Shown: piece by piece, positions 32,442 through 57,863 of the stretch
Layout: the number at the start of each line of letters is the position of its first letter
How positions within the stretch are numbered: position 1 is the stretch's first letter
Source of the DNA: Streptomonospora alba
GTDB taxonomy: Bacteria > Actinomycetota > Actinomycetes > Streptosporangiales > Streptosporangiaceae
Length of the DNA: 64,000 bases
NCBI RefSeq assembly: GCF_000826685.1
Contig: NZ_JROO01000044.1
Location: forward strand, 1-64,000
Direction: 5' to 3'
Notes under the pieces: model-generated
The model's input: the letters and a program-made list of their open reading frames with translations, nothing else
Database searches by the model: none
What the model was told of the DNA's origin: nothing
Program-made: the position numbers and the translations under genes

Positions 32442-32448
32442 GGGCGGC

Positions 32449-33372
32449 TCAGGAACCGTCGCGCGAGCGCACGATCAGATCGGCCAGCAGGGCCATGGCC
32501 GCCACGATCAGGCCGCTGGTCACCAGCATGATCGTGTTGTTGGGGACGTAGAGCGGCTGACGCACCTGGTCGAAGACGAACTTGGCCGCGCCGATGCCCA
32601 GCAGCCACAGCGCGAGCGGCATCAGCACCTTGAGCGGGTTGAAGTACATGACCATCCGCAGCACCTGCAGCAGGTAGCGGTAGGCGTCGCGGACGAAGTG
32701 GAACTTGGAGGTGCCCGACCGCTTGGCGTAGTCGATCGGGATGTAGAGGACGGGGTGCTGGTTGGACAGGAACGCCAGCGTGAGCGTGGTGACGCAGGAG
32801 AACCCGGGCGGCAGCAGGCGCAGATAGGGCAGCGAGACCTCGCGGCGGAAGGCCCTCAGCCCCGAGTTGAGGTCGGGGATGCGCGTGTTGGTCAGCCGCT
32901 CGGCGAGCTTGCGGATCAGCCACTTCATTGGGACCCGCAGCACCCGGTGGCTGCCCGATTCCTGAGTGCGTGCGCCCACCACCTGGTCGAAGCCGGAGTC
33001 GGCGGCGAGCAGGTCCACGAACTCGGGGATGCGCTCGTTGGGGTAGGTCATGTCGGCGTCGGTCCACACGACGATGCGACCGCGGGCGCGCTGGGTACCG
33101 AGGCGGCGCACCGTGCCCGCGCCCCCGTTGTGCCCGAAGGCCACAACCCTCAGGTGCGGGAACAGCGGCTCGGCTTCGCGCAGCAGCGCCAGGGTGTCGT
33201 CGGTCGATGCGTCGTCGACCGCGAGCAGCTCATAGGTGTGGCCCGAGGCGTCCATCGCCGCGCAGACGCGCTCGACCTCCTTGATCACGTGCTCCTGCTC
33301 GTTGTAGCAGGGCAGCACGATGGTGACATCGGGCGCCTGCTCGGGCGCGCCGCCTTCTTGGTTCAGGGACAT
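32449..33372 (-). CDS. Family 2 glycosyltransferase, polyprenyl-phosphate sugar synthase-like
   Basis: 307 residues. GT-A domain with VTIVLPCYNEQEHV, VDDASTD and the metal motif in WTDADMTYP (DAD). Two C-terminal membrane helices are expected (about 245-300). This layout matches DPM1/GtrB-like enzymes that make polyprenyl-phosphate-sugars for use outside the membrane. The ATG at 33372 is chosen, giving MSLNQEGG; a GTG three codons earlier is possible. The upstream membrane protein could be the GT-C enzyme using its product. Confidence 0.92.
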   Translation of the reverse strand: MSLNQEGGAPEQAPDVTIVLPCYNEQEHVIKEVERVCAAMDASGHTYELLAVDDASTDDTLALLREAEPLFPHLRVVAFGHNGGAGTVRRLGTQRARGRIVVWTDADMTYPNERIPEFVDLLAADSGFDQVVGARTQESGSHRVLRVPMKWLIRKLAERLTNTRIPDLNSGLRAFRREVSLPYLRLLPPGFSCVTTLTLAFLSNQHPVLYIPIDYAKRSGTSKFHFVRDAYRYLLQVLRMVMYFNPLKVLMPLALWLLGIGAAKFVFDQVRQPLYVPNNTIMLVTSGLIVAAMALLADLIVRSRDGS

Positions 33373-33419
33373 CTCGCTCACGGTGGGGTTCAGGATAGCT
33401 CCGCGGCTCAGCGGTGCGG

Positions 33420-35462
33420 TCAGCGCACGACGGCGACCCACACGTCGCCGTCGAAGACCCACGCGCCTGCCGGCGGCTCCATCAGCGTGCTGGGATCCTG
33501 CTCGGTGTTGACGTCGAAGGGATGGCTTATCCGGGTGCCCGGCGGCACGTGCGGAAGGATGTGGCGCGGTTGCGAGGCGGCGAGCACGGGGGTGCGGCCG
33601 CGCTCCTCGATCTCGGCGACGACGCGCGCGACGTCGCGGCCCGGTTCGGAGGAGCTGAGGCCGGCCGCGGGCACGCCGCACATGCCCCGCACGAGCTGAA
33701 GATAGCCGCCGTAGAGCCCGTCGACCACGAGCACGCTGGCGTCGTCCGGTATGGCCCGGCACAGTTTCCGTGTCGCTTCGACGCTGCCGACGTCGGAGCG
33801 GTAGGTCATCACCCCCGCTGCGGTGATCGCGGTGGGCACCAGCATCGCGGCGATGCTCGCGGCCGCCGCGACGGCCGCCGTCGTCCGGCGCACCTCCGGG
33901 CGGCTCACCTCCGGCTCGCTGTTCAGCCGACGCGTCAGCCAGGCGGCGAACCACACCGCGAAGAGGATGAACGCCGGCAGCACCAGCACGATCAGCCGCC
34001 TGCTGGCCCAGGGGTGGTCGGGGGTGATGGCGGGGCGCAGCAGTGTGGTGACCACGGTCCACGACAGCACCATCGCCGGCAGCACCCACTGCGGCGCCCT
34101 GCGGCTCATGATCCGGCGCACGATCAGCGCCGCGCCGAAGCTCGCCAGCAGTACCGTGCTCAGCCCCACGTACCAGCCCACCCAGTGCAGGCTCATCTCG
34201 TAGTAGGTGCGGTCGGGGTGGACGGGCAGGCCCTCAAGCTCCTGCACCTGGCCGATGTAGGCGGCGGTGGCCTCGTCGCCGTGCCCGGTGTCGGTGTAGA
34301 GCAGCGGGCGCAGCGCGATCACGGCCATCACCGCGATCACGGCCCAAGCGGCGGCCGTGGGCAGCCACGAGGGCCGGTCGCCGCGCGGCAGGCCGCGCCG
34401 CCACAGCAGCGCCACCGCCGCCGCGACGCAGGCGACCACGGCCGCGCTGATCCACAGCAGCGGCACGAGCGAAGCCGAGAGGTGCTCCAGGTAGGGGCGC
34501 GAGAGTCCGTAGCCGGCCACGGCACCGTAGCCGACCCCTACCGCCAGACCGCCCAGCAGCGGCAGCGCCTGGCCGCGCCGGGCCACCAGCAGCAGCCCGG
34601 CGAAGGCCACCAGGGGAAGCAGGTCGCGCAACGCGGTGATGCGTACCATCAGGCCCAGCCCGAAGACCAGCCCGGAGGCGGCAGCCAGCGTGTGCCACCG
34701 GCTCCAGCCGCCGCCGAGCGCGGTCCTGCGCGTCAGCGCGTCGAAAGCCAGCACGAGGGCGCCCAGCAGCAGTACCTGGGCGACGGGTTCGCTGTAGGTG
34801 GAGCGGCTGATCCACTGCTGGGTCTGGCACACCGCCAGCACCGACGCGGCGGCCGGCGCCCAGCGCGGGCCGATGAGGCGGGCGGCCAGCCCGCCGAAGG
34901 TGAGCACGCCCAGCCCGCCCACGACCGGGGGCACCAGGACCATCCCGGTGAGCCCGCCCAGCCAGTGGCCGACGGTGTAGACCAGCGGTGCCCCGGCGAG
35001 GAACTGGGGCCAGATCACGTCGCCGACCTCGTAATAGGCCAGGCTGCCGTAGACCAGGGCGGGATCGTCGCCCGCGATGAGGCCGCGCTGCTGGGGGATC
35101 GGCAGCCGGCCGTGCTGGGCGATCCAGGCGGTGTACTGCGCGTAGGAGGCGGGGTCGCGGCGCACGACGAGGATCTCGGAGTGGTAGCCCAACTGCACGG
35201 CGACGAAGGCGACGGCGATCCCCGCGGTCAGCACGAGCGGCCACCACGGCAGCCGGGCGCCGTCGCCGTCCGACGGCCCGGGCACCGACCGCACGATCAG
35301 CACCACCCCCGCCGCCACGGCCGGGATCCCCAGCAACGCGCCGGTGAGTGGAGTGAGCACCCCGGCCACCAGCAGCGGAAACGCCACGAGGAGCCAGGCC
35401 GCCAGGACGACTGCCGGCGCCGCGGTGACGCGCGCGAACAGGCGTGCGGAGGTCCATCCCAT
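33420..35462 (-). CDS. Polytopic GT-C-like membrane protein
   Basis: 680 residues with roughly twelve hydrophobic helices and a large C-terminal soluble part. An early extracytoplasmic loop contains SEILVVRRDPASYAQYTAW, with the acidic residue placement seen in GT39/PMT-like lipid-carrier glycosyltransferases. This fits an enzyme that moves a sugar from polyprenyl phosphate to an exported acceptor, which would pair with the downstream GT2. Catalysis is inferred from layout only. Divergent from the TIGR03089/LCP operon. Confidence 0.8.
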   Translation of the reverse strand: MGWTSARLFARVTAAPAVVLAAWLLVAFPLLVAGVLTPLTGALLGIPAVAAGVVLIVRSVPGPSDGDGARLPWWPLVLTAGIAVAFVAVQLGYHSEILVVRRDPASYAQYTAWIAQHGRLPIPQQRGLIAGDDPALVYGSLAYYEVGDVIWPQFLAGAPLVYTVGHWLGGLTGMVLVPPVVGGLGVLTFGGLAARLIGPRWAPAAASVLAVCQTQQWISRSTYSEPVAQVLLLGALVLAFDALTRRTALGGGWSRWHTLAAASGLVFGLGLMVRITALRDLLPLVAFAGLLLVARRGQALPLLGGLAVGVGYGAVAGYGLSRPYLEHLSASLVPLLWISAAVVACVAAAVALLWRRGLPRGDRPSWLPTAAAWAVIAVMAVIALRPLLYTDTGHGDEATAAYIGQVQELEGLPVHPDRTYYEMSLHWVGWYVGLSTVLLASFGAALIVRRIMSRRAPQWVLPAMVLSWTVVTTLLRPAITPDHPWASRRLIVLVLPAFILFAVWFAAWLTRRLNSEPEVSRPEVRRTTAAVAAAASIAAMLVPTAITAAGVMTYRSDVGSVEATRKLCRAIPDDASVLVVDGLYGGYLQLVRGMCGVPAAGLSSSEPGRDVARVVAEIEERGRTPVLAASQPRHILPHVPPGTRISHPFDVNTEQDPSTLMEPPAGAWVFDGDVWVAVVR

Positions 35463-40739: not shown

Positions 40740-42509
40740 TCAGCCGGTGCCGGGTGTGGTCCGGGCCCGCTCGGAACGGGACTCGCCGGTTCCCAGCAGC
40801 GGCCCCAGCGCCAGCAGCCGCGCACCGTGCCTGTTCCACACGCCCGGCTGCAGCGCCCGGCAGAGGAGTTCGCGGCGGGCCAGCTCCGGCACGATGGAAC
40901 CGACGAAAACATACTCCTGCTCGGCCGCCGCGTGGCCGACCGCATCGGCCGAGTCCCCGATCGGCCGCCGCTGCGAGTGTCCGTCGGGCACGGCCGGCCC
41001 CACCGCGTCGGCACCGGAGCACTCCGCGGCGCACAGCAGGTCGGCGAGGAAGTGCTCGCCGCGAGGGCCGCTCCACAGCGCCGCCCACGGCGCGGCGGCG
41101 GCGCGGGCGAGGCGCGCCCAGTCCTCGGGCTGCGGAGCTCCCTCGGGCGCCGCGCCGGCGGCCGTACGCACGGGGACTCCGTGCGAGCGCAGCCGCTCGA
41201 TCCCGGCCAGGTGCACCGCGCTTTCGGGCACCACGACCTCGTCGGGGGCATAGGACTGCTGCAGCACGTCGCCGGCCAGGGCGAGGCTTTCGGCGTCGTC
41301 GCCGGGCAGGGCCAGCAACGCGGTCTGGCGGCTCTTCAGCGGCAGCGACGGGCTGCCCGAGCCGGGTGCGAACCCGAGTCGGCCGAAGATCTCGGCGAGG
41401 CGCACCGGGGTGGCGTCGGTGAGGAACACCGAGCGCAGCACCAGGCGCAGCTCTTCGGAGGTCAGCGGGCCCGCCTCGCGCAGCCGGGCCAGCTCCTCGA
41501 TCGCGGCGCTGGAGCGCAGGGCCCGCACGTCGGCGGCGACCGTGCGCACCGCCGCGTCGCGCTCGTCGGATTCGCCGCGCGACCCGCCGCCCAGCAGCAG
41601 GGCCCGGGCGCCGCAGGCCAGAGCCCTGTCGGCCAGCGCGGTATCGTCGACGACCACTCCGGAGGATGCGCGCAGCCGGGCAGGCAGCTCCTCCGGATCC
41701 TCGCGCACGCCGGCCAAGCGGCGCATGCCGTCCTCGGCCAGCCGCTCGACCAGCCGGTCGGCCACGACCCCGGCCGGGGCGGGCGAGGGAACGTAGGCGG
41801 GTTCGGGGTCGCGCTCGGGTTCGGCTGCCACGGGGTTGAAGCGGTGCAGCGGAACACCGGTGTCGCCGCGGTGGACGTGGTCGAACTCCAGGGCCGCCAG
41901 CCCGGGCGGGGCGGGGGCGTCGGCGATCAGGACGGTGGGCACGCCGCGCGCCGAGGCCGACTCGATCACCCAGTTGAGCACCCGAGTACGGTCGCTTACG
42001 GCGGGGTCGCCGGCATGGGCCCACAGCGAGCCGGGGGCCGCGGCCGAGGCGGACACGCACACGACGTCGACGTCGACGGACTCGAAGGCCGCCTGGGCGT
42101 CCTGGGGCCGCAGCGGCACGACGCGCACATACGGGGCCAGTGCCGCGTGGACCTCGGGGGCGAGGATCCCGGCGACCACAAGCCGGCTGTCGCGCACGCC
42201 CACGCCGCCGGAAAGCAGCCGGGCCTCTTCGCGCTCGGCGTCGAAGGAGCGCACCGGCTGGGTCTTGCGGCCCCTCCCGGTGGCGGGCTGGGTCCGGCCG
42301 GCCCTGCGCCAGAGCCGGAACAGGTCGCGCGGCAGCCGTACCAGGCCGCGCCCGGGCCGCTTGGCCGCCGCGGTCAGGGCGCGGCCCACCTGCAGCGAGG
42401 TCGAGCCTTCCACTGCCGCCAGCCGCGCCTTGGCCTCCTGGAGCTGGGCCTCCCGCTCGGACAGGGCTTGTCTCAGCTGTTCGGTGTGGCTCAGTTCACG
42501 CCGTTTCAC
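40740..42509 (-). CDS. Coiled-coil protein with degenerate GT-A domain
   Basis: 589 residues. The N-terminus holds a short coiled coil (RQALSEREAQLQEAKARLA) followed by STSLQVGRALTAAAKRPG, the linker seen in large glycan-cluster glycosyltransferases. The middle is a poorly conserved alpha/beta region. The C-terminal ~190 residues align by eye with family 2 glycosyltransferases (ESLALAGDVLQQSYAPDEVVV; HFLADLLCAAECSGADAVG). However, the catalytic DDD/DxD that should precede that block is replaced by WSGPRG. It may be an inactive, structural glycosyltransferase. GTG at 42509 with AGGAAG upstream. Confidence 0.75.
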   Translation of the reverse strand: MKRRELSHTEQLRQALSEREAQLQEAKARLAAVEGSTSLQVGRALTAAAKRPGRGLVRLPRDLFRLWRRAGRTQPATGRGRKTQPVRSFDAEREEARLLSGGVGVRDSRLVVAGILAPEVHAALAPYVRVVPLRPQDAQAAFESVDVDVVCVSASAAAPGSLWAHAGDPAVSDRTRVLNWVIESASARGVPTVLIADAPAPPGLAALEFDHVHRGDTGVPLHRFNPVAAEPERDPEPAYVPSPAPAGVVADRLVERLAEDGMRRLAGVREDPEELPARLRASSGVVVDDTALADRALACGARALLLGGGSRGESDERDAAVRTVAADVRALRSSAAIEELARLREAGPLTSEELRLVLRSVFLTDATPVRLAEIFGRLGFAPGSGSPSLPLKSRQTALLALPGDDAESLALAGDVLQQSYAPDEVVVPESAVHLAGIERLRSHGVPVRTAAGAAPEGAPQPEDWARLARAAAAPWAALWSGPRGEHFLADLLCAAECSGADAVGPAVPDGHSQRRPIGDSADAVGHAAAEQEYVFVGSIVPELARRELLCRALQPGVWNRHGARLLALGPLLGTGESRSERARTTPGTG

Positions 42510-42553
42510 GGGATACTTCCTGCCTTGGGGTGCGGATCCGGTGGGGCACGGGC

Positions 42554-43792
42554 TCAGGCACTGCGATTCCGGCCGGGCGCCGGCGCACCGGACGTCCAGT
42601 CGGCGAGGACTGTCGCGATGCGCTCGCCGGCGTTGCCGTCCCACAGCGGGGGGACGTCGGCGAGGGCCGCGGTGTCGATGCCCTCGCCGGCCAGGATCTT
42701 GGAGACCAGGCCGGGCAGTTCGGAGTCGGTGACGAGCCGGTTGCTGCCGTGGGTGATGGTGATGGGCCGTTCGGTGTTGGGGCGAAGGGTCAGGCAGGGC
42801 ACGCCCAGGATGGTGGTCTCCTCCTGGACTCCGCCGGAGTCGGTGACCACGGCGGTCGCGCCGCGCACCAGCGCCACGAAGTCAATGTAGCCCAGCGGCT
42901 CCAGCATGTGCATTCGCGGATGATCGGCCAGGCCGGCGGCCGTCAGCGACGCGCGGCCGCGCGGGTGGACGGGCATCACGACGTCGATCTGGTCGGCGAC
43001 CTCGTGCAGGCGCGCCACCAGGCGCGCGACGGTCTCGGGGTCGTCGACGTTGGCAGGGCGGTGCAGGGTGGCGGCGACGTAGGAGTCGGGCAGCTCCAGG
43101 CGCTCGCGCAGAGCGGCGGTGTCGAAGCGGTCGAGCCGTGCCAGCAGCGTGTCGATCATCGGGTTGCCGACCAGGTGCACCCGGTCGACCGCGACCCCCT
43201 CGGCGGCGAGGTGGCCGATCGCCTCGGGGCTGGTCGCGAAGCACAGGTCGGCGAGCTGGTCGGTGAGCCGGCGGTTGACCTCCTCGGGCATCGACCAGTC
43301 GAAGGAGCGCAGACCGGCCTCGACGTGGGCGACCGGGATGTGCAGCTTGGCCGCTACGATCCCGGCGGCCAGCGTGGAGTTGACGTCGCCGTAGACCACC
43401 ACGAGAGCCGGTGAACGCTCGATGAACTCCCGCTCCAGCCCGGTCATCAGCGCCGCGGTCTGCTCGGCGTGCGATCCCGACCCCACACCGAGGTCGACGT
43501 CGGGCCGGGGCAGCCCCAGCTCGCGGAAGAAGACCGCCGACATGCGGTCGTCGTAGTGCTGGCCGGTGTGCACGACCGACTGGCGCAGCCCGCGGGCCTC
43601 CAGCGCCGACACGACCGGCGCGGCCTTGACGAAGTTCGGCCGCGCGCCGACGATGTGCACGATCTCAGCGGAGCCCGGACCACCGCCGGAAGCGGAACGC
43701 ACCGCCTCGGCCGCGTGCCCAGGAGCCTCCGTGCCATCGGCGGGCCGGTCGGCTCTGTCACCGCCGGAACGGGCGGCCGGTGCTGACGACAT
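42554..43792 (-). CDS. wecB: UDP-N-acetylglucosamine 2-epimerase (non-hydrolysing)
   Basis: Converts UDP-GlcNAc to UDP-ManNAc for surface glycans. 412 residues with an Ala/Gly/Arg-rich N-terminal extension of about 40 residues. Core motifs: HIVGARPNFVKAAPV, VYGDVNSTLAAGI, HVEAGLRSFDWSMPEEVNRR, TLHRPANVDD and VTDSGGVQEETT. The ATG at 43792 has AAGGGAA upstream. The start of a leftward operon, divergent from a GT4 gene. A UDP-ManNAc dehydrogenase lies at 46047, so together they can produce UDP-ManNAcA. Confidence 0.95.
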   Translation of the reverse strand: MSSAPAARSGGDRADRPADGTEAPGHAAEAVRSASGGGPGSAEIVHIVGARPNFVKAAPVVSALEARGLRQSVVHTGQHYDDRMSAVFFRELGLPRPDVDLGVGSGSHAEQTAALMTGLEREFIERSPALVVVYGDVNSTLAAGIVAAKLHIPVAHVEAGLRSFDWSMPEEVNRRLTDQLADLCFATSPEAIGHLAAEGVAVDRVHLVGNPMIDTLLARLDRFDTAALRERLELPDSYVAATLHRPANVDDPETVARLVARLHEVADQIDVVMPVHPRGRASLTAAGLADHPRMHMLEPLGYIDFVALVRGATAVVTDSGGVQEETTILGVPCLTLRPNTERPITITHGSNRLVTDSELPGLVSKILAGEGIDTAALADVPPLWDGNAGERIATVLADWTSGAPAPGRNRSA

Positions 43793-48773: not shown

Positions 48774-49631
48774 TCAGACCACGGGCGGGCGCCCGTCCAC
48801 GGTCATGCGCCAGACCGTGGACCAGCGCATGGGCCTGCGCGGGCCGCAGTCGCTGCGCCAGCCCTCGCGGAACCCGCGGAACCACGCCCGCAGCTCGGGC
48901 AGCGAGCGCTCCCGCAGCACGGTGATGCCGACCCATACGGCCAGGTGGGCCAGTGCCAGCGTCCAGGGAAGGTTCCGCCGCGCCAGCCACACCCGGTTGC
49001 GCGCGTTGAGCCGGTAGAAGTCCTCGTGCCGGCTGGGGTGGGTCGAGGGGTGGTACATCACCGCCTCGGCGTCGTACTCGATGTGATAGCCGACGTCCAG
49101 CACGCGCCAGGCCAGGTCGCTTTCCTCGTGAGCGTAGAAGAACCCGCCCGGCAGCCCGCCGGCCGTGTCGAAGGCGGCGCGGCGCACCGCGGCGGCACCG
49201 CCCAGGAACGTGGTGACACGACTGGAGCGCAGCGGGTCCCCCACGCGCAGGCGCGGGACGTAGCGGCGCAGGTCGGGGCCGCCGTCGGGGTCGACGATGC
49301 GGAAGGTGAGGATGCCCAGTCGCGGGTCGGCGGCGAAGCGGCGGCTGACGTGGTGGACGAGGTCGCGCGAGCGGTACCAGCCGTCGTCGTCGAGGAACAG
49401 GATGATGTCGCCGCTGGCCGCTTTGACGCCCTCGTTGCGCCCCTCGGGGATACCGATGTTCTCGGGCAGGCGGACCGTGATGACGCCGTCGGGCAGCTCG
49501 GGCAGCTCGGCGCCGTTGCTGACCACGATCAGCTCCAGGTCCGCGCCCTCCTGCTCCAGAACGCTGGTGACCGCACGGCGCAGCTCGGCCGGCCGAGTCC
49601 CCATCGTCAGGATGACGCAGGAGGTCTTCAA
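48774..49631 (-). CDS. Family 2 glycosyltransferase
   Basis: 285 residues, GT-A fold: TSCVILTMGTRPAELRRAV, ENIGIPEGRNEGV, the metal motif ILFLDDDGWY and the acceptor-site block FFYAHEESDLAWRVLDVGY. This resembles rhamnosyl/galactosyl transferases of surface polysaccharides. The TTG at 49631 is chosen because a strong GGAGGTGAG lies six bases upstream; longer readings are low-complexity. Last gene of the leftward CDP-alcohol cluster, though 305 bases and a hairpin separate it from the next gene upstream, so it may be its own unit. Confidence 0.9.
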   Translation of the reverse strand: MKTSCVILTMGTRPAELRRAVTSVLEQEGADLELIVVSNGAELPELPDGVITVRLPENIGIPEGRNEGVKAASGDIILFLDDDGWYRSRDLVHHVSRRFAADPRLGILTFRIVDPDGGPDLRRYVPRLRVGDPLRSSRVTTFLGGAAAVRRAAFDTAGGLPGGFFYAHEESDLAWRVLDVGYHIEYDAEAVMYHPSTHPSRHEDFYRLNARNRVWLARRNLPWTLALAHLAVWVGITVLRERSLPELRAWFRGFREGWRSDCGPRRPMRWSTVWRMTVDGRPPVV

Positions 49632-49891
49632 GGCCAGCTCACCTCCGCACCCGACCGCTTTCCCGTCGTCAACCGTACGCGACGACGAGGCTCCACGGTC
49701 CGCGCTGCGCTGCGGTGCTGCGGCGGGCGGGTCGGACGCTGCAGGGTCGGTTTCGCTCGGCAGGCCTGGACTGGTCATGGGTACCGTTCGTAAACGTGGA
49801 CGCATGGTGGACGGATGATGAGCGTTGCACATCAGGTATAACGGAATGATAAATCACTACGGTCGCCGACCTGCTCACCAGCAGGGCCGCC
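49632..49891. other. Intergenic region upstream of the GT2 gene
   Basis: No gene supported. Positions 49820-49865 are A+T-rich and on the minus strand carry TTATAC-like sequence, a plausible promoter for the GT2 gene. Confidence 0.4.
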
Positions 49892-49936: not shown

Positions 49937-50707
49937 CTACTCCAACCGCCGCGATGCCAGCACGCTGACCATGTGCAGGATCGTCTGCACCGCGGCGACC
50001 GCGACGCACACCACCACCAGCACCCGGGTCGCCATCAGGTCGCCGCGCGCCAGGTCGATCACCGCGGTACCCAGCGCCAGCAGCGAAAGCTCGACGGCCT
50101 GGATGATGCGGTGGAACCGCAGCGCCGAGGCGGCCTTGCGGGCCAGACCCAGCCGCGGCGAGCGGGGCTGGAGCTGGTCGTCGGCGATCTTCTCCGAGAG
50201 CCCGGCCTTGGCGCGGGCCACGACCACGTTGTCGGTCTCGGCCTTGATCAGGGCGGCGCCGAGCGCGGCGGCCATGCCGGCGATCACCCACCCGCCGGCG
50301 TCGAGCCCGCCCTGGGCTCGCACGCCGAGCCCGATGAGCAGGGCGACCTCGGCGAGGTAGTGGCCGATCCGGTCCAGGAAGATCCCGGCGACGCTGGTGC
50401 GCCCGGTGAAGCGGGCGACCTCGCCGTCGGAGCAGTCCAGCAGCAGGTAGAGCTGCACCAGGACGACCGCCGCCGCGGCCGACCAGAATCCTCCCAGCGC
50501 CAGGACGCCGCCGGCCAGCACTCCCGATCCCATCATCAGGTAGGTGATGGGGTTGGGCGGCACGCCCAACCGCACGAAGACCGTGCTGAGATAGGGCGAC
50601 AGGTCGCGCATGTAGAGCCGACCCGCCCAGTGCTCCTCGTTCAGCCGCTGCTTGATGCCCTCGGGCTGACCGCCCGAGCGGATCTCAGCGATCGATGGCT
50701 TGGACAT
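49937..50707 (-). CDS. CDP-alcohol phosphotransferase with Asp-to-His change
   Basis: 256-residue membrane enzyme that should transfer a phospho-alcohol from a CDP-alcohol to another alcohol, releasing CMP. The family motif D-x2-DG-x2-AR-x8-G-x3-D-x3-D is visible at 91-116 (DCSDGEVARFTG, then GIFLDRIGH). The fourth Asp, the presumed general base, is His116. About six membrane helices are spread over residues 35-250. The ATG start at 50707 lies 23 bases inside the upstream dehydrogenase gene, so translation is coupled. Substrate inferred from the neighbours: a CDP-polyol such as CDP-glycerol. Confidence 0.9.
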   Translation of the reverse strand: MSKPSIAEIRSGGQPEGIKQRLNEEHWAGRLYMRDLSPYLSTVFVRLGVPPNPITYLMMGSGVLAGGVLALGGFWSAAAAVVLVQLYLLLDCSDGEVARFTGRTSVAGIFLDRIGHYLAEVALLIGLGVRAQGGLDAGGWVIAGMAAALGAALIKAETDNVVVARAKAGLSEKIADDQLQPRSPRLGLARKAASALRFHRIIQAVELSLLALGTAVIDLARGDLMATRVLVVVCVAVAAVQTILHMVSVLASRRLE

Positions 50708-51752
50708 ATTCCGCCACGCTCCGCCTGATGTCGTCGTCCGAAAGGGCCAGGTGCTCCAGCACGGTGTAGCGTCCCGGCCGGGTGGCGGGGGCGTGGGCCA
50801 CCGCTCGCGCGAACTGCTCCTCGTCCAGGCCGACGTCGCCGGGCAGGGTGGGAAGGCCGTGGCGAAGGAGGCAGGCGCGGATCTCGTTCATGCGCGCCTC
50901 GCCGAACCCCTGGTACCGGCTCCGCAGGAAGTAGGCGTAGAGGGCGCCGATTCCGGCCAGCTCTCCGTGGTTGCTGGTGCCCGGGTAGAGCTGGTCGACG
51001 GCGTGCAGTACCTCGTGGCACGCGCCGCTGGCAGGGCGGCTGGAGCCTGCCACCGACATCGCCATGCCGGAGAGCACGAGCGCCTCGGCCAGCGCGGTCA
51101 GGAAGTCCTGGGAGTCGACGGTGTCGCCCCGGTTGACGATCGCCTCGGCCGCGGTGCGGGCGAAGGTGACCGCCATGCCGTCGACGGGCTCGCCCTGCTC
51201 GCGGCCGGCCAGTTCCCAGTCGGCGATGGCCGACAGGTTGCTGACCACGTCGCCCACACCCGAGCGCACCAGGCGCGGCGGGGCGGCGCGCACGTAGTCG
51301 ACGTCGACCACGACCGCGACCGGCATGGTGACGCCGTAGGAGCCCTTGCCGCTCTCGTGCTCCAGGGAGCTGACCGGCGAGGCGATGCCGTCGTGGGAGA
51401 GGTTGGTGGCCACGGCGACCATGGGGATTCCGGCCATGGAGGCGGCGAACTTGGTGACGTCGATGGTCTTGCCGCCGCCGATTCCGGCAACGGCCTCGTA
51501 GGCGCCCGAGCGCAGCTTCTTGCCCAGCTCGGTGCCCACGTCGACGCTGCCGCCCTCGACCTTGAAGACCTCGCAGTGCGGCAGGTCGAGCTCGGCGGCG
51601 ATCTGGGAACCCTGTCCGGGGCCGACGGCCACGGCGATGCGGCCCTCGTTGGCGATGCGGCGGTCGGCCAGCACGGATCCCAGCGAGGCGATGGCGCCCT
51701 GGCGGACGTCGATCGCCAGCGGCGCATTGATCATGCGGGCTAGTAGTGGCAT
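50685..51752 (-). CDS. Glycerol-1-phosphate dehydrogenase-like enzyme
   Basis: 355 residues of the iron/zinc alcohol dehydrogenase-DHQ synthase superfamily, closest by motif to glycerol-1-phosphate dehydrogenases (archaeal EgsA, bacterial AraM). NAD-site GGGKTID at 92-98. SHDGIASP at 119-126 has the metal-ligand Asp121. GVGDVVSNLSAIADWELAG is at about 166-183. Candidate metal ligands are His246/His250 (ACHEVLHAVD) and His262 (NHGELAGIG). Predicted reaction: dihydroxyacetone phosphate to sn-glycerol 1-phosphate, or a related keto-phosphate to a polyol phosphate. It overlaps the cytidylyltransferase gene by 13 bases and the phosphotransferase gene by 23. Confidence 0.88.
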   Translation of the reverse strand: MPLLARMINAPLAIDVRQGAIASLGSVLADRRIANEGRIAVAVGPGQGSQIAAELDLPHCEVFKVEGGSVDVGTELGKKLRSGAYEAVAGIGGGKTIDVTKFAASMAGIPMVAVATNLSHDGIASPVSSLEHESGKGSYGVTMPVAVVVDVDYVRAAPPRLVRSGVGDVVSNLSAIADWELAGREQGEPVDGMAVTFARTAAEAIVNRGDTVDSQDFLTALAEALVLSGMAMSVAGSSRPASGACHEVLHAVDQLYPGTSNHGELAGIGALYAYFLRSRYQGFGEARMNEIRACLLRHGLPTLPGDVGLDEEQFARAVAHAPATRPGRYTVLEHLALSDDDIRRSVAEYVQAIDR

Positions 51753-52471
51753 GCGATCTCCCTGGCGCGGTTCAGATCGTCGTGGTCGTCGACCTCGACC
51801 CAGTCGACCTCGCCGATCGGCGCGACGGCGACCTTGCCTCCGCGGTCGACCAGCTCCTGGAAACCGTCCTCGTAGTAGAGCTGGGGGTCGCGCTCCCACG
51901 TGGCCCTGAGCGCGTCGGCGATCCGGTCCGACAGCGAGCCCTCGATGAGGGTGGCGCCGATGTACTCGCCGGCGGCCTCGGCGGGGTCTATGAGCTTGGT
52001 GATGCGGCTGAGGTGACCGGAGCCGTCCAGGGTCACCTTCATCTCCTCGTCGGCCAGAGTTTTGGCGCTGTCCACCGCCAGGAGCAGTTCCGGTCCTCGC
52101 GCGGCGAGTAGCGTCTCTTCCACGCTGACCGGATGGACGGTGTCGCCGTTGACGAGGAGGACGCCTTCGGAGAAGTACTCGCGCGCGGTCCACAAGGAGT
52201 AGGCGTTGTTCCACTCCTCGGCCTTGTCGTTGTAGGCGAGGGTGAGTGAGACGCCGTGGCGGCGCTCCATCTCCTGCTTTCGCTGCTCGACGGCCTCAGC
52301 GCGGTAGCCGACGACCACGACCACGTCGGTCAGGCCCGCGGCGGCGAGGTTGCGCAGCGAGATGTCCATGATGGTGGTCTCACCATCGACCGGCACCAGT
52401 GCCTTGGGCAGGGTGTCGGTGTAGGGGCGCAGTCGGCGGCCCGCTCCTGCGGCAAGAACCATACCGAGCAT
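51740..52471 (-). CDS. LicC-like phospho-alcohol cytidylyltransferase
   Basis: 243 residues, nucleotidyltransferase fold: LAAGAGRRLRPYTDTLPKAL at 6-25 (nucleotide loop with Lys23) and the metal Asp in LLVNGDTVHP (Asp110). The acceptor-site motif WNNAYSLW at 87-94 is shared with phosphocholine and inositol-phosphate cytidylyltransferases. It should make a CDP-alcohol from CTP and a small phospho-alcohol. The ATG at 52471 has AAGGAGGAA nine bases upstream. The product of the next gene (a polyol-phosphate-forming dehydrogenase) is the likely substrate. Confidence 0.9.
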   Translation of the reverse strand: MLGMVLAAGAGRRLRPYTDTLPKALVPVDGETTIMDISLRNLAAAGLTDVVVVVGYRAEAVEQRKQEMERRHGVSLTLAYNDKAEEWNNAYSLWTAREYFSEGVLLVNGDTVHPVSVEETLLAARGPELLLAVDSAKTLADEEMKVTLDGSGHLSRITKLIDPAEAAGEYIGATLIEGSLSDRIADALRATWERDPQLYYEDGFQELVDRGGKVAVAPIGEVDWVEVDDHDDLNRAREIACHY

Positions 52472-52487: not shown

Positions 52488-53126
52488 TTACATCGTGGAG
52501 GCGTCCACGCCTCCCGACTCGTTGCGCGGAGCCCGTGCTTCCGCGATCGGGGCAGCGAGCCAGCTCGTCGTGGCCTCCCAGACGAGCAGCACCGCAAGGT
52601 AACCCGTCAGTACACCGTAGGTGAACGGCAGCCAGCCCAGTGCCCCGCCGGCGGCCAGGACCAGCATCCGCCCGTCCCATCCGAGCATCGCCCGCATGAC
52701 CCAGGCGGGCGGGCGCAGACCGGTGCGGGTGCGGTGCACCGCGTCGGCGTGGTGCAGCGCGACCGCAGCCAAGAGTACGAAGACCAGCGGGCCGCCGACG
52801 CCGGACCCGTAGCCGAGCGCCAGGACATAAAGGTACTCCGTCACGCGCAGGAGGGGCGGGACCAGCCGGTCGAACCGTCCGCTGTGAGGGTGCCCCGAGG
52901 CGACTCCGGAGAGCAGTAGCGCGGCCACCGGTGCGAACAGGGTAATGCCTGCGAGATGGTTGAGGCCCGTCGCCATCAGTGCTCCGGCCACCAGGGCCCC
53001 GGCCAGGGTGGGCAGCAGCGGCGGGAGCCCGCCGGCGGCGAGCCGGCCCATGGCCGTGCTCAGATGCCCGTCGTCACGGAGATAGCGCAGGTCCACGCCG
53101 ACATCGGGCGGTGGGGAAGCGCCCAT
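52488..53126 (-). CDS. Membrane protein, DUF5941-like
   Basis: 212 residues with about five membrane helices. Conserved-looking patches include ALHHADAVHRTRTGL and GWDGRMLVLAAGGALGW, which I associate with the DUF5941 region of actinobacterial proteins linked to CDP-alcohol phosphotransferases. No catalytic DxxDG motif. Three bases separate its start from the stop of the upstream membrane protein and 16 bases from the cytidylyltransferase start, so it is part of the operon. Probably a membrane partner of the pathway; assignment tentative. Confidence 0.65.
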   Translation of the reverse strand: MGASPPPDVGVDLRYLRDDGHLSTAMGRLAAGGLPPLLPTLAGALVAGALMATGLNHLAGITLFAPVAALLLSGVASGHPHSGRFDRLVPPLLRVTEYLYVLALGYGSGVGGPLVFVLLAAVALHHADAVHRTRTGLRPPAWVMRAMLGWDGRMLVLAAGGALGWLPFTYGVLTGYLAVLLVWEATTSWLAAPIAEARAPRNESGGVDASTM

Positions 53127-53129
53127 GGC

Positions 53130-54137
53130 TCACCTCGTGGTGTCGTCGGGGCGGCCGGTGAGTTCGGCGGTGACAGCGAGGACGCACCCCACGATCAGTG
53201 CGACGAACGTCACTCGGGCGTCCCAAATCGTTATCGTCAGGGCCACTACGCCGAAGCGCGCGGCTTGGGGGAAGGCGGCGAGCCACGTGCGGAAGCTCGG
53301 CCGCGGCCCGGGCACGGGAGGTCCCGTGCCGGTGTCGGCGGTGTCGGACGGGAGCGCGGGGCCGCCCGGGGTTTCGCGGTCGTCGGCGGAGGACGCCGCA
53401 CCCAGAGCGTCGGCGCGGCCCTCGGACCAGCCCGGCCAAGGTGCGCCCTTGGGAACCGTGCGGATCCCGAAGAGCAGGCCGTCGCCGGGAGCGGCGGATG
53501 CGGCGCCGCCGGAGGCGTCCCCGTCGGAGGCGTCGCCGTCGCCGTCGCCGTCCGCGACGGTGTCGGCAGTGGCGTCCGCGGACTGTTCCGGGGCCCCGAG
53601 GAGCTCGGCCGTCAGCGACGCGTCCCCGGGAGCGCTGTCGTCCGGGCGCCGACTGGGGTCGACCGCCTCGATGGGCCGGGGCAGCCCGGACTCGGGTGTC
53701 CACTCGGGCCGGCCGACGTCGGCCCTACGCGCGGCCGCCACGGAGTCCCGCAGCGCGAGGGCGATGAGCGCGCCCGCCGCCCAGGCCCACGCGTCGGGCA
53801 CGCCGGCGGCCGTGCCCCCGACCGCGAGCCCGACGTAGACGACGTACTCGCGCAGGCGCCCCAGCACCAGCGCCAGCCACACGTCCAGGCGGTCCCGGCG
53901 CCCGCCGCGCAGCCGGTCGGCCACCGGATCGGTGACGAGGACGGCTCCGAGCAGGAGCGAGCCGACGACGGCGCCGCGAAGTCCGCCCTCGGTGAACCAC
54001 ACGGCCGCCGCGACGGCCAGTACGAGCCCGATCCGCGACATGGCCGACGGGCTGACCCGTCCCCGGCGCGACCGACCGCCGAGGGGTCCGGTGCGCCTGC
54101 TGCCTCCGCGGCCGGAGTGAGCGTCGACGTCTGACAC
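53130..54137 (-). CDS. Membrane protein resembling an eroded CDP-alcohol phosphotransferase
   Basis: 335 residues. After a basic N-terminus come two helices, then DRLDVWLALVLGRLREYVVYVGLAVG, which aligns with the C-terminal half of the CDP-alcohol phosphotransferase motif (normally G-x3-D-x3-D followed by REY). The Asp residues are lost and no DxxDGxxAR precedes it. A disordered Asp/Gly/Ser/Ala linker (about 165-235) leads to a final helical part (SFRTWLAAFPQAARFGVVAL). First gene of the operon; GTG at 54137 with GGGAGGGGC upstream. Likely structural rather than catalytic. Confidence 0.6.
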   Translation of the reverse strand: MSDVDAHSGRGGSRRTGPLGGRSRRGRVSPSAMSRIGLVLAVAAAVWFTEGGLRGAVVGSLLLGAVLVTDPVADRLRGGRRDRLDVWLALVLGRLREYVVYVGLAVGGTAAGVPDAWAWAAGALIALALRDSVAAARRADVGRPEWTPESGLPRPIEAVDPSRRPDDSAPGDASLTAELLGAPEQSADATADTVADGDGDGDASDGDASGGAASAAPGDGLLFGIRTVPKGAPWPGWSEGRADALGAASSADDRETPGGPALPSDTADTGTGPPVPGPRPSFRTWLAAFPQAARFGVVALTITIWDARVTFVALIVGCVLAVTAELTGRPDDTTR

Positions 54138-54337
54138 GGCAGTGCCCCTCCCACGCGGCCTCGAACTCACCGTGTACCCGCGGGGGTACGCATGGCAACC
54201 ACCGGCACACCGGACGCGCGGTAAGAGCGGAAAGTCCAAAAAGCCGGGGAGGACGGGAAATCCGGGGAGCCGGCGAACCGCGTGATACGGGTCGCCGCGG
54301 ACGACGGGGCCCTGGCGGCCCTCTCGCCGGGGCGCGC

Positions 54338-55246
54338 TCAGGCCGCCCGGCCGCCGTCCCCCGGTTCCCGGCGCCCGCGGTCGCCGCCCCGCTCCGCGGC
54401 GGGAGCGTCGGCGCTCTCGGGACCCCCGAGCCGGCGGGCCCGCCGGTCGGCCCCGCCGGCGGCCGTCCCGCCCGGCTCCGACGGCTCGCCGCGCTCCTGC
54501 TCCTCGGCGGCGCGATCCTGCTCGTAGGCCCGCAGCGCTGTGTCGATGCCGGTGTCCAGAGCCAGGCCCCCGTCCCTCAGGTACAGCCCGCGGGTGCAGA
54601 AGCGCCGCAGGTCGGCCTCACTGTGCGAGACCAGGACCATCGTCCTGCCGTCGGCCAGCATCCGCTCGACGGTGCCGTAGCACTTCTCCCGGAACTCCTG
54701 GTCGCCGACTGCCAGCACCTCGTCGACGAGCAGCACGGGGTGCTCCAGCTGGGCGACGAGGGCGAAACCGAGCCGGACCTTCATGCCGCTGGAGTAGTGG
54801 CGTACCGGCATGTCGATGTAGCTCTCGCGCAGGTCGGCGAAGTCGACGATCTCGTCGAAGCGCTCGTCGATGTCCTGCCGGCTCATTCCGTGCAGGGAGC
54901 CGACGAGGTAGATGTTCTCCCGCCCGGTGAGCCGGCCGTTGAACCCGGCCCGCAGCTCCAGCAGCGGAGCGACCCTGCCGCGGACCGCCACCCTGCCCTC
55001 ATCGGGGATGAGGACCCCCGCGATCAGCTTGAGCAGGGTGGACTTGCCGGTTCCGTTCTTACCGACGATGCCCACGCACTCGCCCCGACGGATCCGGAAG
55101 GAGACATCGCGCACCGGCCAGAAGGCTCCCTCCGCACCCGGGCCGCGCCCGGCGCCCAGCAGCAGCTCGCGCAGGCCGCGCCTGCGCCTGCGGTTCGCGG
55201 AGAACCGGATACCGAGGCCCTCGGCCTCGATGACGGGCTCGGTCAT
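54338..55246 (-). CDS. tagH: Polysaccharide/teichoic acid ABC exporter ATPase (TagH-like)
   Basis: 302 residues. ABC ATPase with Walker A VGKNGTGKST near 61-70, signature YSSGMKVRLGFAL and Walker B VLLVDEVLAVGD, all in the form typical of the Wzt/TagH/RfbE branch that exports undecaprenyl-linked glycans. The ~50-residue Ser/Gly/Glu/Arg C-terminal tail is disordered and not a carbohydrate-binding domain. Its ATG shares one base with the permease stop (TGATG), so the pair is coupled. It would move the finished glycan across the membrane. Confidence 0.93.
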   Translation of the reverse strand: MTEPVIEAEGLGIRFSANRRRRRGLRELLLGAGRGPGAEGAFWPVRDVSFRIRRGECVGIVGKNGTGKSTLLKLIAGVLIPDEGRVAVRGRVAPLLELRAGFNGRLTGRENIYLVGSLHGMSRQDIDERFDEIVDFADLRESYIDMPVRHYSSGMKVRLGFALVAQLEHPVLLVDEVLAVGDQEFREKCYGTVERMLADGRTMVLVSHSEADLRRFCTRGLYLRDGGLALDTGIDTALRAYEQDRAAEEQERGEPSEPGGTAAGGADRRARRLGGPESADAPAAERGGDRGRREPGDGGRAA

Positions 55247-56073
55247 CACAGCTCCTTCAGCACCGAGGCCTCCAGACGCCGGAACGTCGCGTACCCGACC
55301 ACCAGGACGAGGATCGCTCCCCCGATGCTCGTCGACAGGACCAGGGCGCCGGGAGCGTCGGCCGGATACCAGACGGCGTGGTGCATCTTGAAGAGGCCCA
55401 GCAGCGGGTTGAACTGGAAAAGCGTCGTGAACCAGGTGGGGAAGCGGTCGGACTCCAGCACCAGGCCCGAGGGGATGATGATGGCCGACGCGTAGAACAG
55501 CACCCGGTTGAGGATGCGCACCATCCGTTCGACGTCGCGCACGAGCACGTTCACCGTCGCCAGCAGCAGTGTCATCCCCAGCGAGAACACCAGCTGCACG
55601 GTGATCGCCAGCGGCAGCCACACCAGAATCCCCTGAGCGCTGGTGCGCCCGCCCAGCGCGAAGACGAAGGCGAGCAGCACCGGCCACGTGAACAGGTAGT
55701 CGGCGAACTTGGCGGCGGCCGCCTGCACGGGGAAGATCTCCCGCGGCATGCGCATCGTGGTGATGAGCTTGCTGTGGCTGATGATCGCGTTGGGCGCCTG
55801 GTTCAGCGACTGGGCGAACCACAGCCACGGCAGCAGACCCGAGATCAGAAACAGCAGGTAACCGCCGGGCGCGTCGCCGCCTCCGGGAACACCGCGGTTC
55901 GTGTCGAATACGAGGCCGAAGACGAAGAAGTAGACCCCCGCCATCGCCAGCGGCTCCAGCATCGACCAGGCGTATCCCAGCAGCGAACCCTGGTACTTGA
56001 CCTTCAGGTCCCGCCGCACGAGGAGGCCGACGACCCGCCGGCTGTGCCAGACGGCCAACGCCCGTGACGCCAC
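55246..56073 (-). CDS. tagG: Polysaccharide/teichoic acid ABC exporter permease (TagG-like)
   Basis: 275 residues, ABC-2 permease with six helices and the family opening VVGLLVRRDLKVKYQGSLLGYAW. FNPLLGLFKMHHAVWYPA lies near the end. The GTG at 56073 is chosen over a start 32 codons upstream because GGGGAGGGGG lies directly before it. Works with TagH to flip lipid-linked polymer to the outer face, where LCP proteins would attach it. Divergent from the cytidylyltransferase gene at 56266. Confidence 0.92.
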   Translation of the reverse strand: MASRALAVWHSRRVVGLLVRRDLKVKYQGSLLGYAWSMLEPLAMAGVYFFVFGLVFDTNRGVPGGGDAPGGYLLFLISGLLPWLWFAQSLNQAPNAIISHSKLITTMRMPREIFPVQAAAAKFADYLFTWPVLLAFVFALGGRTSAQGILVWLPLAITVQLVFSLGMTLLLATVNVLVRDVERMVRILNRVLFYASAIIIPSGLVLESDRFPTWFTTLFQFNPLLGLFKMHHAVWYPADAPGALVLSTSIGGAILVLVVGYATFRRLEASVLKEL

Positions 56074-56265
56074 CGAACCCCCTCCCCGATGCCGCCGTCG
56101 CCGATCCGGCGGCGCGGCGGCGGCCCAGCCTACCGGCGGGGCGCCCGGCTCAGCGGCGCGCGACGGCACCGGCCGCCCCGCGCCGGTGGGCTAATCTCGG
56201 CTGCGATGCAGGGCTCGCCGGACGAGCCCGACACAGGCCCTCGGCCGCAGCGGGAAAGGACGACG

Positions 56266-57081
56266 ATGCAGGTGGACTCCGCCACGCCCGCGCATTCGCA
56301 GACGGGTGCGCGCCCCCACGTCACGGCGGCGGTGCTGGCGGGCGGCGTCGGCGCACGCATGGGCGGGCCCTCCCCCAAGCAGTTGCTGCCGCTTGCGGGC
56401 CGCCCGGTGCTGGAGCACGCCCTGGCCGCGTTCTGCGCCGCGCCCGAGGTCGACGACGTCATCGTGCTGATGGTGCCCGAGCATCTGGACGAGGCCGAGG
56501 AGATCGTCGCTCGTGCGTTCCCGGACCGCGTCTCGGCCGTCCTGCCGGGCGGGGAGAACCGCACCGAGACCTCGGCCGCGGCGCTGCGCGCGTTGGATCA
56601 CCGCGGCGACGAGGACCTGGTGCTCCTGCACGACGCCGCCCGTCCGCTGGTGACCCCGGAGATCATCAGCGCGTGCGTGGACGCCCTGGCCGAGGCCGGG
56701 GCCGCGGGCGTGGCCGTGCCCGCAGGCGACACGGTTGTGGAGATCGCCCCGACGTCCGGCGGCGCCGAGGTCCTGCGCGACGTCCCGCCCCGCTCCTCGC
56801 TGCGCCGGATGCAGACGCCGCAGGGGTTCCGGCTGGAGGTCGTGCGCCGCGCCTACCGCCTGGCGCTTGCCGATCCCGATCTGGTGGCCACCGACGACTG
56901 CGGCGTGGTGCTGCGCTACCTGCCCGGCGAGGAGGTGCGCATCGTCGCCGGCGACGAGTCCAACATCAAGGTCACCAATCCCGGCGACGTCGAGATCGCC
57001 GAGACCCTGATGCGCGTGCGCGGCGGCACTGCCGCCGCTCCGTCCGCGGCCCGGGCGCGGCGGCAGGAGGCCCGCGGGTGA
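56266..57081 (+). CDS. IspD/TarI-family cytidylyltransferase
   Basis: 271 residues. Nucleotidyltransferase with AAVLAGGVGARMG and PKQLLPLAGRP near 21-46, GGENRTET, LLHDAARPLV, MQTPQGF and NIKVTNPGDVEIAE. Two products are possible: CDP-methylerythritol (IspD, isoprenoid MEP pathway) or CDP-ribitol (TarI, teichoic acid). The LAGGxGxRMG..PKQ(F/L)LPL opening, DTVVEI, VPPR before the QTPQGF block, and the NIKVT ending look closer to TarI as I know it. The exporter, phosphodiesterase and LCP neighbours, with no ispF beside it, also favour a teichoic-acid role. Unresolved without alignment. Confidence 0.85.
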   Translation: MQVDSATPAHSQTGARPHVTAAVLAGGVGARMGGPSPKQLLPLAGRPVLEHALAAFCAAPEVDDVIVLMVPEHLDEAEEIVARAFPDRVSAVLPGGENRTETSAAALRALDHRGDEDLVLLHDAARPLVTPEIISACVDALAEAGAAGVAVPAGDTVVEIAPTSGGAEVLRDVPPRSSLRRMQTPQGFRLEVVRRAYRLALADPDLVATDDCGVVLRYLPGEEVRIVAGDESNIKVTNPGDVEIAETLMRVRGGTAAAPSAARARRQEARG

Positions 57082-57863
57082 CGGTGTTCAGCGCACCCGA
57101 GGTCATCGGGCACCGCGGGGCGGGGCGCGGCACGGCGTCGGGCTACCGGGAGAACTCCGCCGAGTCCTACCTGGCCGCGATCGGGGCCGGAGCGCACTGG
57201 GTCGAGATCGACGTGCGGCGCACCGCCGACGACGCGCTGGTGATCCACCACGACGAGGCCTTGCCGGACGGTCGGCCGATCGCCGACCTCCCGGTGGAGG
57301 CGTGCCGCGAAGCGGGACTGCTGCGTCTGGACGAGGCGTTCGCGGCCATCCCCCTCTGCGCGGGGGTGGACGTCGATGTGAAGTCGGTGATGGAGGACGC
57401 GGTCGATCCGCCCGAGCGGCGCACCACGGCGCTGCTGCTGCCCGCCCTGCGCCGCGAGGCCGAGCGCCGCCGCGCCGCCGCCGGCTGCGAGCGCGTGTTC
57501 GTCTGCTCGTTCGACCCCGCCGTGCTGCTGGCCGTACGCGAGGGGGCACCGGAGATTCCGCTGGCGTGGATGCCGTTCGTGCGCAATCCCCTGGACCAGG
57601 CGGTGGCGGGCGCGGCGGGGTTGGGCTGTGCGCTGGTGGCGATCGACGCCCGCTCCTTCGGCCTCGCGGGCGAACCCGCGCGACCGGGCCGCCGCGAGGT
57701 CGCCTATACGGTCGGCGTCGCCCACCGCGCGGGGCTGGAAATCGTCACCTGGTGCCCCGACCCCGTCGATGCGGCCCGGTTCGCCGACGCGGGGGTGGAC
57801 GCGGTCGTCGCCGACGACGTCCCCGGAGTGGTCGCCGCGTTGAAGGCCGACGCCAGGCGCTGA
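57078..57863 (+). CDS. Glycerophosphodiester phosphodiesterase
   Basis: 261 residues, TIM-barrel GDPD: first catalytic block VIGHRGAGRG and ENSAESYLAAIGAGAHWVEI at the N-terminus, then RRTADDALVIHHDEAL with the paired His. Metal-binding acidic residues are in VDVDVKSVMED. It hydrolyses glycerophosphodiesters, including lipid headgroups and glycerol-phosphate polymers. No signal peptide, so cytoplasmic. The GTG at 57078 overlaps the cytidylyltransferase stop by four bases (GTGA), so they are coupled. Could recycle CDP- or glycerophospho-intermediates of the pathway. Confidence 0.92.
   Translation: MTVFSAPEVIGHRGAGRGTASGYRENSAESYLAAIGAGAHWVEIDVRRTADDALVIHHDEALPDGRPIADLPVEACREAGLLRLDEAFAAIPLCAGVDVDVKSVMEDAVDPPERRTTALLLPALRREAERRRAAAGCERVFVCSFDPAVLLAVREGAPEIPLAWMPFVRNPLDQAVAGAAGLGCALVAIDARSFGLAGEPARPGRREVAYTVGVAHRAGLEIVTWCPDPVDAARFADAGVDAVVADDVPGVVAALKADARR

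Follow-up and report, generated by a model that had tools for sequence, protein, structure and literature searches.

A candidate LicC-G1PDH supply of sn-1 CDP-glycerol for teichoic acid synthesis in Streptomonospora alba and other TagD-less actinobacteria

The glycerol-phosphate polymers described for Bacillus subtilis differ in handedness, with lipoteichoic acid (LTA) reported to be built from sn-glycerol-1-phosphate (G1P) and wall teichoic acid (WTA) from sn-glycerol-3-phosphate (PMC7086022). For actinobacteria, the published picture is of a polyglycerol-phosphate LTA in Streptomyces hygroscopicus whose chain closely resembles its WTA (PMC3196553), of LTA cited for Thermobifida fusca (PMC3196553, PMC3089915) and of sequenced genomes which, as far as those two accounts go, are without clear LtaS orthologues (LtaS was not searched for in the genome treated here); the answer offered there is that LTA and WTA synthesis overlap (PMC3196553, PMC3089915). 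Actinobacterial genes for G1P dehydrogenase (G1PDH) are already in print in the context of lipids (PMC5059525, PMC6431249, PMC1586193), and a 2026 synteny survey of Streptomyces places araM near tagG, tagH, a CDP-alcohol phosphotransferase (CDP-AP) and a sugar-phosphate nucleotidyltransferase (PMC13118837). The present analysis concerns an operon of Streptomonospora alba within a stretch of 64,000 nucleotides (contig NZ_JROO01000044.1, positions 1 to 64,000; hereafter the window), in which genes for a LicC-like nucleotidyltransferase, a G1PDH-like dehydrogenase and a CDP-AP all lie on the minus strand at 49937-52471 and overlap by 13 and 23 bases (Table 1). Both overlaps, first recorded in an initial annotation of this DNA, are exact by coordinates, and the trio is real: domain matches (Fe-ADH_2, E 4e-25; NTP_transferase, 2e-14; CDP-OH_P_transf, 5e-4) mark genes rather than chance open reading frames.

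The reading favoured here, and judged on balance to be probable, is that in actinobacteria without TagD the teichoic acid machine receives sn-1 CDP-glycerol from G1PDH and LicC, which take the place of that enzyme, and that the CDP-AP is an auxiliary. From gene content, conservation, co-occurrence, linkage and folds, which were established directly, a scheme can be drawn in which every substrate, the catalysis, the stereochemistry and the CDP-AP acceptor are predicted: G1PDH would reduce dihydroxyacetone phosphate to G1P; the LicC-like enzyme would combine this with CTP to give CDP-(1)-glycerol, which would stand in for the CDP-(3)-glycerol made by TagD and feed TagF-type glycerol-phosphate polymerases; the CDP-AP, resembling AF2299 of Archaeoglobus, would transfer glycerol phosphate onto a polar acceptor such as the lipid-linked sugar of a linkage or anchor unit; and TagGH would export the polymer, which LytR-CpsA-Psr (LCP) proteins may attach. 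The outcome would be a glycerol-phosphate polymer (WTA and/or LTA) with sn-1 units. Like the TagD/TagB/TagF pathway, this scheme has CDP-glycerol as its proposed donor, and homologues of TagF and TagGH are present, but no TagD exceeds its cut-off and the donor would come from G1P via a LicC-type fold. Like the LtaS pathway, it would yield a polymer of sn-1 glycerol phosphate (PMC7086022), whereas the route here would be cytosolic and CDP-dependent rather than drawing on phosphatidylglycerol. The initial annotation had held that bacterial teichoic acids use the 3-phosphate, a premise that fails, for LTA is reported to be of the G1P series already (PMC7086022); its CDP-polyol route fares better, in that enzymes of G1PDH type, LicC type and CDP-AP fold do share one operon, plausibly for G1P-series CDP-glycerol and an envelope polymer, although the CDP-AP departs from its class at the likely catalytic-base position.

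Evidence for a teichoic acid context comes from co-occurrence. Within the S. alba genome, 97.5% complete as searched, a TagF-type protein scores 372 bits against PF04464 and 313 bits against the glycerol-type TarF model versus 113 for ribitol TarL, the last two being under their equivalog cut-offs. A survey of 197 genomes of the class, with limits chosen once the score distributions of earlier searches were visible (G1PDH, E 1e-40; TagF, PF04464 at E 1e-15; TagD-like, TIGR01518 at E 1e-20), found G1PDH in 47, TagF in 74 and a TagD-like protein in 14. TagF was present in 45 of the 47 genomes with G1PDH versus 29 of the 150 without it (Fisher 3.5e-22), the two that have G1PDH and no TagF (G443, G494) belonging to one genus, and TagD-like proteins and G1PDH occurred together in none of the 197. 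TagF and G1PDH are no more than 10 kb apart in at least 4 of the 45 genomes, against 0.39 expected at random (P ~7e-4), the linked genomes having been picked by hand among the matches listed, from assemblies of which many are fragmented, and the 10-kb limit having been set afterwards. Individual loci display this linkage in different forms: LicC, G1PDH, TagG, TagH and TagF genes adjoin in L153, with a glycerophosphodiester phosphodiesterase (GDPD) and two more PF04464 proteins nearby (39.0 and 30.5 bits; cut-off 22.1); in L063, from another class of the same phylum, TagF and LicC-G1PDH diverge and a GDPD lies alongside; the LicC-G1PDH pair, TagGH, CDP-AP and TagF stand all together in L155; and overlapping G1PDH, CDP-AP and TagA/WecG genes have LicC approximately 3 kb upstream in L062. 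By this linkage, LicC-G1PDH tracks a glycerol-phosphate polymerase and an exporter, and the CDP-AP often accompanies the pair but can be parted from it. The genome of locus L156 (G467), presumed to belong to the Streptomycetaceae, holds two copies of G1PDH, one of them near TagF genes.

Other sources of an activated polyol within the genome were considered. TagD gave two weak matches, neither over the cut-off; the better of them (on C18) lies in a protein that we take to be HldE-like, judging by eye with no family scan, and a TagD elsewhere in the genome was set aside for that reason. The only PF01128 matches are the IspD-type protein of the window and one in a protein that looks like GlmU on inspection by eye, with no family scan made, so that no second IspD/TarI was found and CDP-ribitol from such an enzyme was likewise set aside. 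The window IspD itself scores 173.7 bits against the ispD model (cut-off 181.3) versus 153.8 against the ribitol model (cut-off 166) and, being below both cut-offs, may have a ribitol role.

Conservation of gene order was counted by script over 80 named loci collected by their CDP-AP, some of them truncated by contig ends. LicC, G1PDH and CDP-AP follow one another in this order and on one strand in 74; a single locus (L146) has the same genes in convergent arrangement; and five (L142-L145 and L148, from a Sporichthyaceae metagenome-assembled genome (MAG), Curtobacterium and Terrabacter) show neither LicC nor G1PDH at the locus, and searches of their genomes turned up no G1PDH orthologue, any match being weak (E 3e-7 at best). 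A glycosyltransferase homologue is found at 78 of the 80 loci and TagG or TagH at 60. The nearest named relative is another Streptomonospora (91% in CDP-AP), with Nocardiopsis, Thermobifida and others coming next; in the family survey, 57 of 61 genomes (its own included) had a match at E <=0.001, of which 56 were orthologue-like at E ~1e-133 or lower, and the operon is present in Thermobifida, Actinomadura and Nocardiopsis. Among named carriers are Nocardiopsis halotolerans (L081), for which a glycerol-phosphate teichoic acid is reported (PMC6801904), and T. fusca (L101). Farther afield, LicC lies near G1PDH in 10 of 16 distant actinobacterial loci with short flanks (L034-L049), and G1PDH was detected at E 1e-40 in 32 of the 296 genomes of a phylum sample. 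Three loci (L153, L154, L063) combine LicC-G1PDH with TagF and have no CDP-AP of the His type described below within 18-20 kb, a canonical CDP-AP adjoining in L154. The single chain of three enzymes first proposed is therefore upheld as an operon conserved in 74 of 80 loci and dropped as an obligatory chain, since LicC-G1PDH occurs without a His-type CDP-AP and, in the five genomes above, CDP-AP without a detected G1PDH. The Curtobacterium loci L144 (11595-12932), L143 and L148 hold CDP-AP, glycosyltransferase, TagGH and a low PF04464 match (24.1 bits, L144), with the G1PDH orthologue undetected genome-wide.

The dehydrogenase belongs to Pfam Fe-ADH_2 (88.9 bits, over the curated cut-off of 28), and its best NCBIfam model is PRK00843, that of G1PDH. 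Solved relatives by sequence are the G1PDH (EgsA) of Methanocaldococcus jannaschii (4rgq/4rfl/4rgv, 159.8 bits), 3ce9 (148.6), a further G1PDH (5fb3, 128.5) and 9h4x (75.7), and a fold search with the predicted structure (pLDDT 90.7) placed M. jannaschii G1PDH at ranks 1-9 by E-value, with query TM 0.80-0.81. The SHDGIASP motif at residues 119-126 and the histidines 246, 250 and 262, to which the initial annotation had drawn attention, are all present; EgsA has SNDGIASP, and its GD...H...HGE positions align. The three histidines are invariant and D168 is at least 90% conserved in an alignment of 24 dehydrogenases, and these four residues are presumably the metal ligands, an assignment made by homology. 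What separates the enzyme from EgsA is a score under the NCBIfam equivalog cut-off, a wall-type operon and a genome in which no PcrB was found. AraM of B. subtilis (9h4x) is a bacterial G1PDH of the same superfamily, but it is more distant from the window dehydrogenase than are the archaeal enzymes (75.7 versus 159.8 bits), and its G1P is reported to go to heptaprenylglyceryl phosphate (PMC5059525). As the best matches by E-value are G1PDHs in both sequence and fold, with 3ce9 close, the handedness of the product is taken to be that of G1P, which the dehydrogenase very probably makes.

The LicC-like protein carries an NTP_transferase domain (53.9 bits) and a LicC-like NNxYSL segment; its nearest solved structure by sequence is CTP:phosphocholine cytidylyltransferase (1jyk), and N89, S92, N108, D110, E226 and D228 are invariant among 23 LicC-like sequences. 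Activation of G1P by this enzyme is considered likely. Together with the CDP-AP it matches separate halves of the archaeal IPCT-DIPPS fusion in NCBIfam, far under the cut-off of that model, and in Archaeoglobus AF2299/IPCT-DIPPS a cytidylyltransferase-type domain is indeed combined with a CDP-AP, AF2299 being reported with a CDP-glycerol donor (PMC4634129); the arrangement here differs in that the two proteins are encoded separately, on either side of a G1PDH gene, His stands for the fourth Asp of the signature, and the neighbours are wall-type.

The CDP-AP narrowly misses the Pfam gathering score for CDP-OH_P_transf (20.9 bits against 22). The class I signature is given as DxxDGxxAR..GxxxDxxxD, with eight residues (PMC4634129), of which the protein has seven; its fourth Asp is replaced by His116, which leaves it outside that signature. 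Across 127 motif matches, from a scan of window positions 40001-64000 and of loci L053 onwards, some of which overlap, the fourth position was H in 90, D in 36 and A in one. The same scan found no second signature in the window (53130-54239 included) or in L070, L091, L101 and L117; a second, canonical CDP-AP is joined to or precedes DUF5941 in L142, L145, L154 and L155. For the predicted structure (pLDDT 89.1), AF2299 comes first among the fold matches by E-value (E 6.6e-05, probability 1.00). According to a paper on phosphatidylinositol-phosphate (PIP) synthase, the glycerol of the CDP-glycerol donor of AF2299 was shown to fit a small hydrophilic pocket in that enzyme (PMC4634129). The predicted use of CDP-glycerol by the S. 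alba protein is evenly balanced between yes and no, and the best-supported reading of it is as an auxiliary glycerol-phosphate transferase with an altered catalytic motif; a role as a TagB-like primase is a suggestion that one locus (L062) brings to mind.

It is worth noting, however, that a number of results weigh against the proposed replacement of TagD. The 241.5 bits of the dehydrogenase against PRK00843 fall short of the 413-bit equivalog cut-off; 3ce9, a Clostridium entry called glycerol dehydrogenase, is close in sequence score (148.6 versus 159.8 bits) and, whilst at fold ranks 10-11 by E-value, has a slightly higher query TM of 0.83-0.84. In the CDP-AP, His occupies the likely catalytic-base position (Ala in aligned rows L024 and L027, presumed Streptomycetaceae), where a change of D to N is reported to have nearly abolished a PIP synthase (PMC4634129); its query TM ranges for AF2299 (0.50-0.60) and for PIP synthases (0.45-0.58) overlap; and the five genomes that hold it with the G1PDH orthologue undetected are of unstated completeness, one being a MAG. 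Three loci (L065-L067) have G1PDH with LicC undetected in their 20-kb stretches. The TagF gene of S. alba is encoded away from the trio and unlinked to it, and the association of TagF with G1PDH, counted by hand by genus (20 of 21 genera with G1PDH versus 18 of 70; Fisher 8e-9), is uncorrected for relatedness above that rank. Neither a TagD-like protein nor G1PDH was found in 22 of the 74 genomes with TagF, so TagF can obtain its donor otherwise, and the TagD screen is imperfect, as 7 of the 14 TagD-like genomes have TagF, 7 do not, and none of the 14 reaches the curated cut-off. Finally, Nocardiopsis metallicus carries the operon (L080), and its major teichoic acid is reported to be poly(ribitol phosphate) (PMC6801904). 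As a separate observation, the G1PDH homologues of L065-L067 may serve another role, and L066 contains a CDP-AP-like stretch.

Four other explanations of the operon can be set beside the TagD replacement. That G1P is prenylated as in B. subtilis (AraM and PcrB), with the neighbouring genes processing an ether phospholipid of archaeal type, is extremely improbable: bacterial G1PDH is discussed in the context of the lipid divide, and Coleman et al. list Streptomyces among genera in which some species have the full set of three archaeal lipid genes (PMC6431249), but no PcrB/GGGPS family match was found in this genome by a search whose control recovered the family from 7 of 14 known genomes, over the cut-off in 5, and the neighbours are genes for a teichoic-acid-type transporter and for glycosyltransferases. 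Because PcrB was not found, ether-lipid use was set aside for this genome. Diglycerol phosphate and glycerophosphoinositol are osmolytes, and the trio could instead make such a soluble compatible solute from CDP-glycerol through an AF2299/DIPPS-like enzyme, which would accord with LicC matching one half of IPCT-DIPPS, an archaeal solute enzyme, and CDP-AP the other. AF2299 leads the fold matches by E-value, and CDP-APs with six transmembrane segments are reported with soluble acceptors (PMC4634129); set against the family 2 glycosyltransferase and TagG or TagH genes that recur at the loci, the TagF genes at some other loci and the presence of the operon in Thermobifida and Actinomadura besides Nocardiopsis, a solute is nonetheless distinctly unlikely.

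The remaining two explanations bear on individual enzymes. If the pair did supply CDP-glycerol and either the dehydrogenase or later enzymes led to the sn-3 series, the product would be an ordinary teichoic acid, in keeping with the WTA precursor CDP-glycerol studied elsewhere, which is reported to be of that series (PMC7086022); with G1P dehydrogenases as the best matches of the enzyme by E-value, in sequence and fold, this is very unlikely. The CDP-AP might be PIP-synthase-like, using CDP-diacylglycerol and an inositol-phosphate or polyol-phosphate acceptor, with LicC and G1PDH merely sharing its operon. NCBIfam matches to PIP synthase and archaetidylinositol phosphate synthase, below cut-off, speak for it, as do the CDP-AP genomes without a detected G1PDH orthologue and TM-scores that fail to separate AF2299 from PIP synthases; AF2299 nevertheless outranks PIP synthases by E-value, the CDP-AP is collinear with LicC-G1PDH at nearly all loci counted, and a PIP-synthase-like role is accordingly thought unlikely.

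The neighbourhood of the trio is summarised in Table 1. The wider window also encodes two LCP proteins, a UDP-GlcNAc 2-epimerase, a UDP-sugar dehydrogenase and glycosyltransferases, all of wall-glycan type, and three long open frames in that wall-glycan region (40740-42644, 33420-35462 and 32434-33699) have no Pfam match at E 0.001. In three lineages a GDPD domain is found close to the LicC-G1PDH pair (window 57111-57821, L063 6647-7336 and L153 16024-16836).

Table 1. The LicC-G1PDH-CDP-AP genes and their neighbours in the window.
Feature	Coordinates	Strand	Basis or remark
LicC-like nucleotidyltransferase (proposed CTP:sn-glycerol-1-phosphate cytidylyltransferase), 243 aa	51740..52471	-	Pfam, NCBIfam, alignment to 1jyk
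G1PDH-like dehydrogenase (proposed dihydroxyacetone phosphate to sn-glycerol-1-phosphate), 355 aa	50685..51752	-	Pfam, NCBIfam, solved structures, predicted fold
CDP-AP-fold membrane protein, 256 aa, D91xxD94GxxAR..G108xxxD112xxxH116	49937..50707	-	Pfam, NCBIfam, fold
Family 2 glycosyltransferase, 3' of trio	48774..49832	-	Homologue in 78/80 named loci
DUF5941 membrane protein, upstream of LicC gene	52488..53126	-	Elsewhere joined to or after canonical CDP-AP
Protein without Pfam match, no signature motif	53130..54239	-	Position of second, canonical CDP-AP of other lineages
TagH-like ABC ATPase	54338..55260	-	Start approximate; open frame extends to 55828
TagG-like ABC-2 permease	55246..56169	-	ABC2_membrane 26.0 bits vs cut-off 26.9
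IspD-type cytidylyltransferase, divergent neighbour	56089..57081	+	PF01128
GDPD domain protein, neighbour	57111..57821	+	Domain match

The statement of the initial annotation that no characterised pathway has this set of enzymes stands insofar as none was found in the open-licence literature, but the neighbouring genes have already been listed (PMC13118837); that survey is also the nearest to a paper proposing G1PDH-LicC supply of teichoic acid, none having been found in the same literature. As polyglycerol-phosphate LTA is reported from actinobacteria without a clear LtaS, G1PDH-LicC is a testable candidate route to it. A broader possibility, offered tentatively and with somewhat more doubt than belief, is that Streptomyces, Thermobifida, Nocardiopsis and their relatives make both WTA and LTA from cytosolic CDP-(1)-glycerol, so that their WTA too would have the handedness of LTA, G1PDH-LicC would replace TagD as well as the need for LtaS, and the main actinobacterial task of G1PDH would lie in the wall rather than in lipid. 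With this single gene set two questions could be put to the test: how actinobacteria without clear LtaS build a polyglycerol-phosphate LTA resembling their WTA, and what role G1PDH has in bacteria without the next lipid enzyme, its gene being one that figures in debates on the origin of the archaeal-bacterial lipid divide. Were the polymers indeed of sn-1 units, these organisms would respond differently to enzymes and antibodies that are believed to distinguish LTA and WTA by their handedness.

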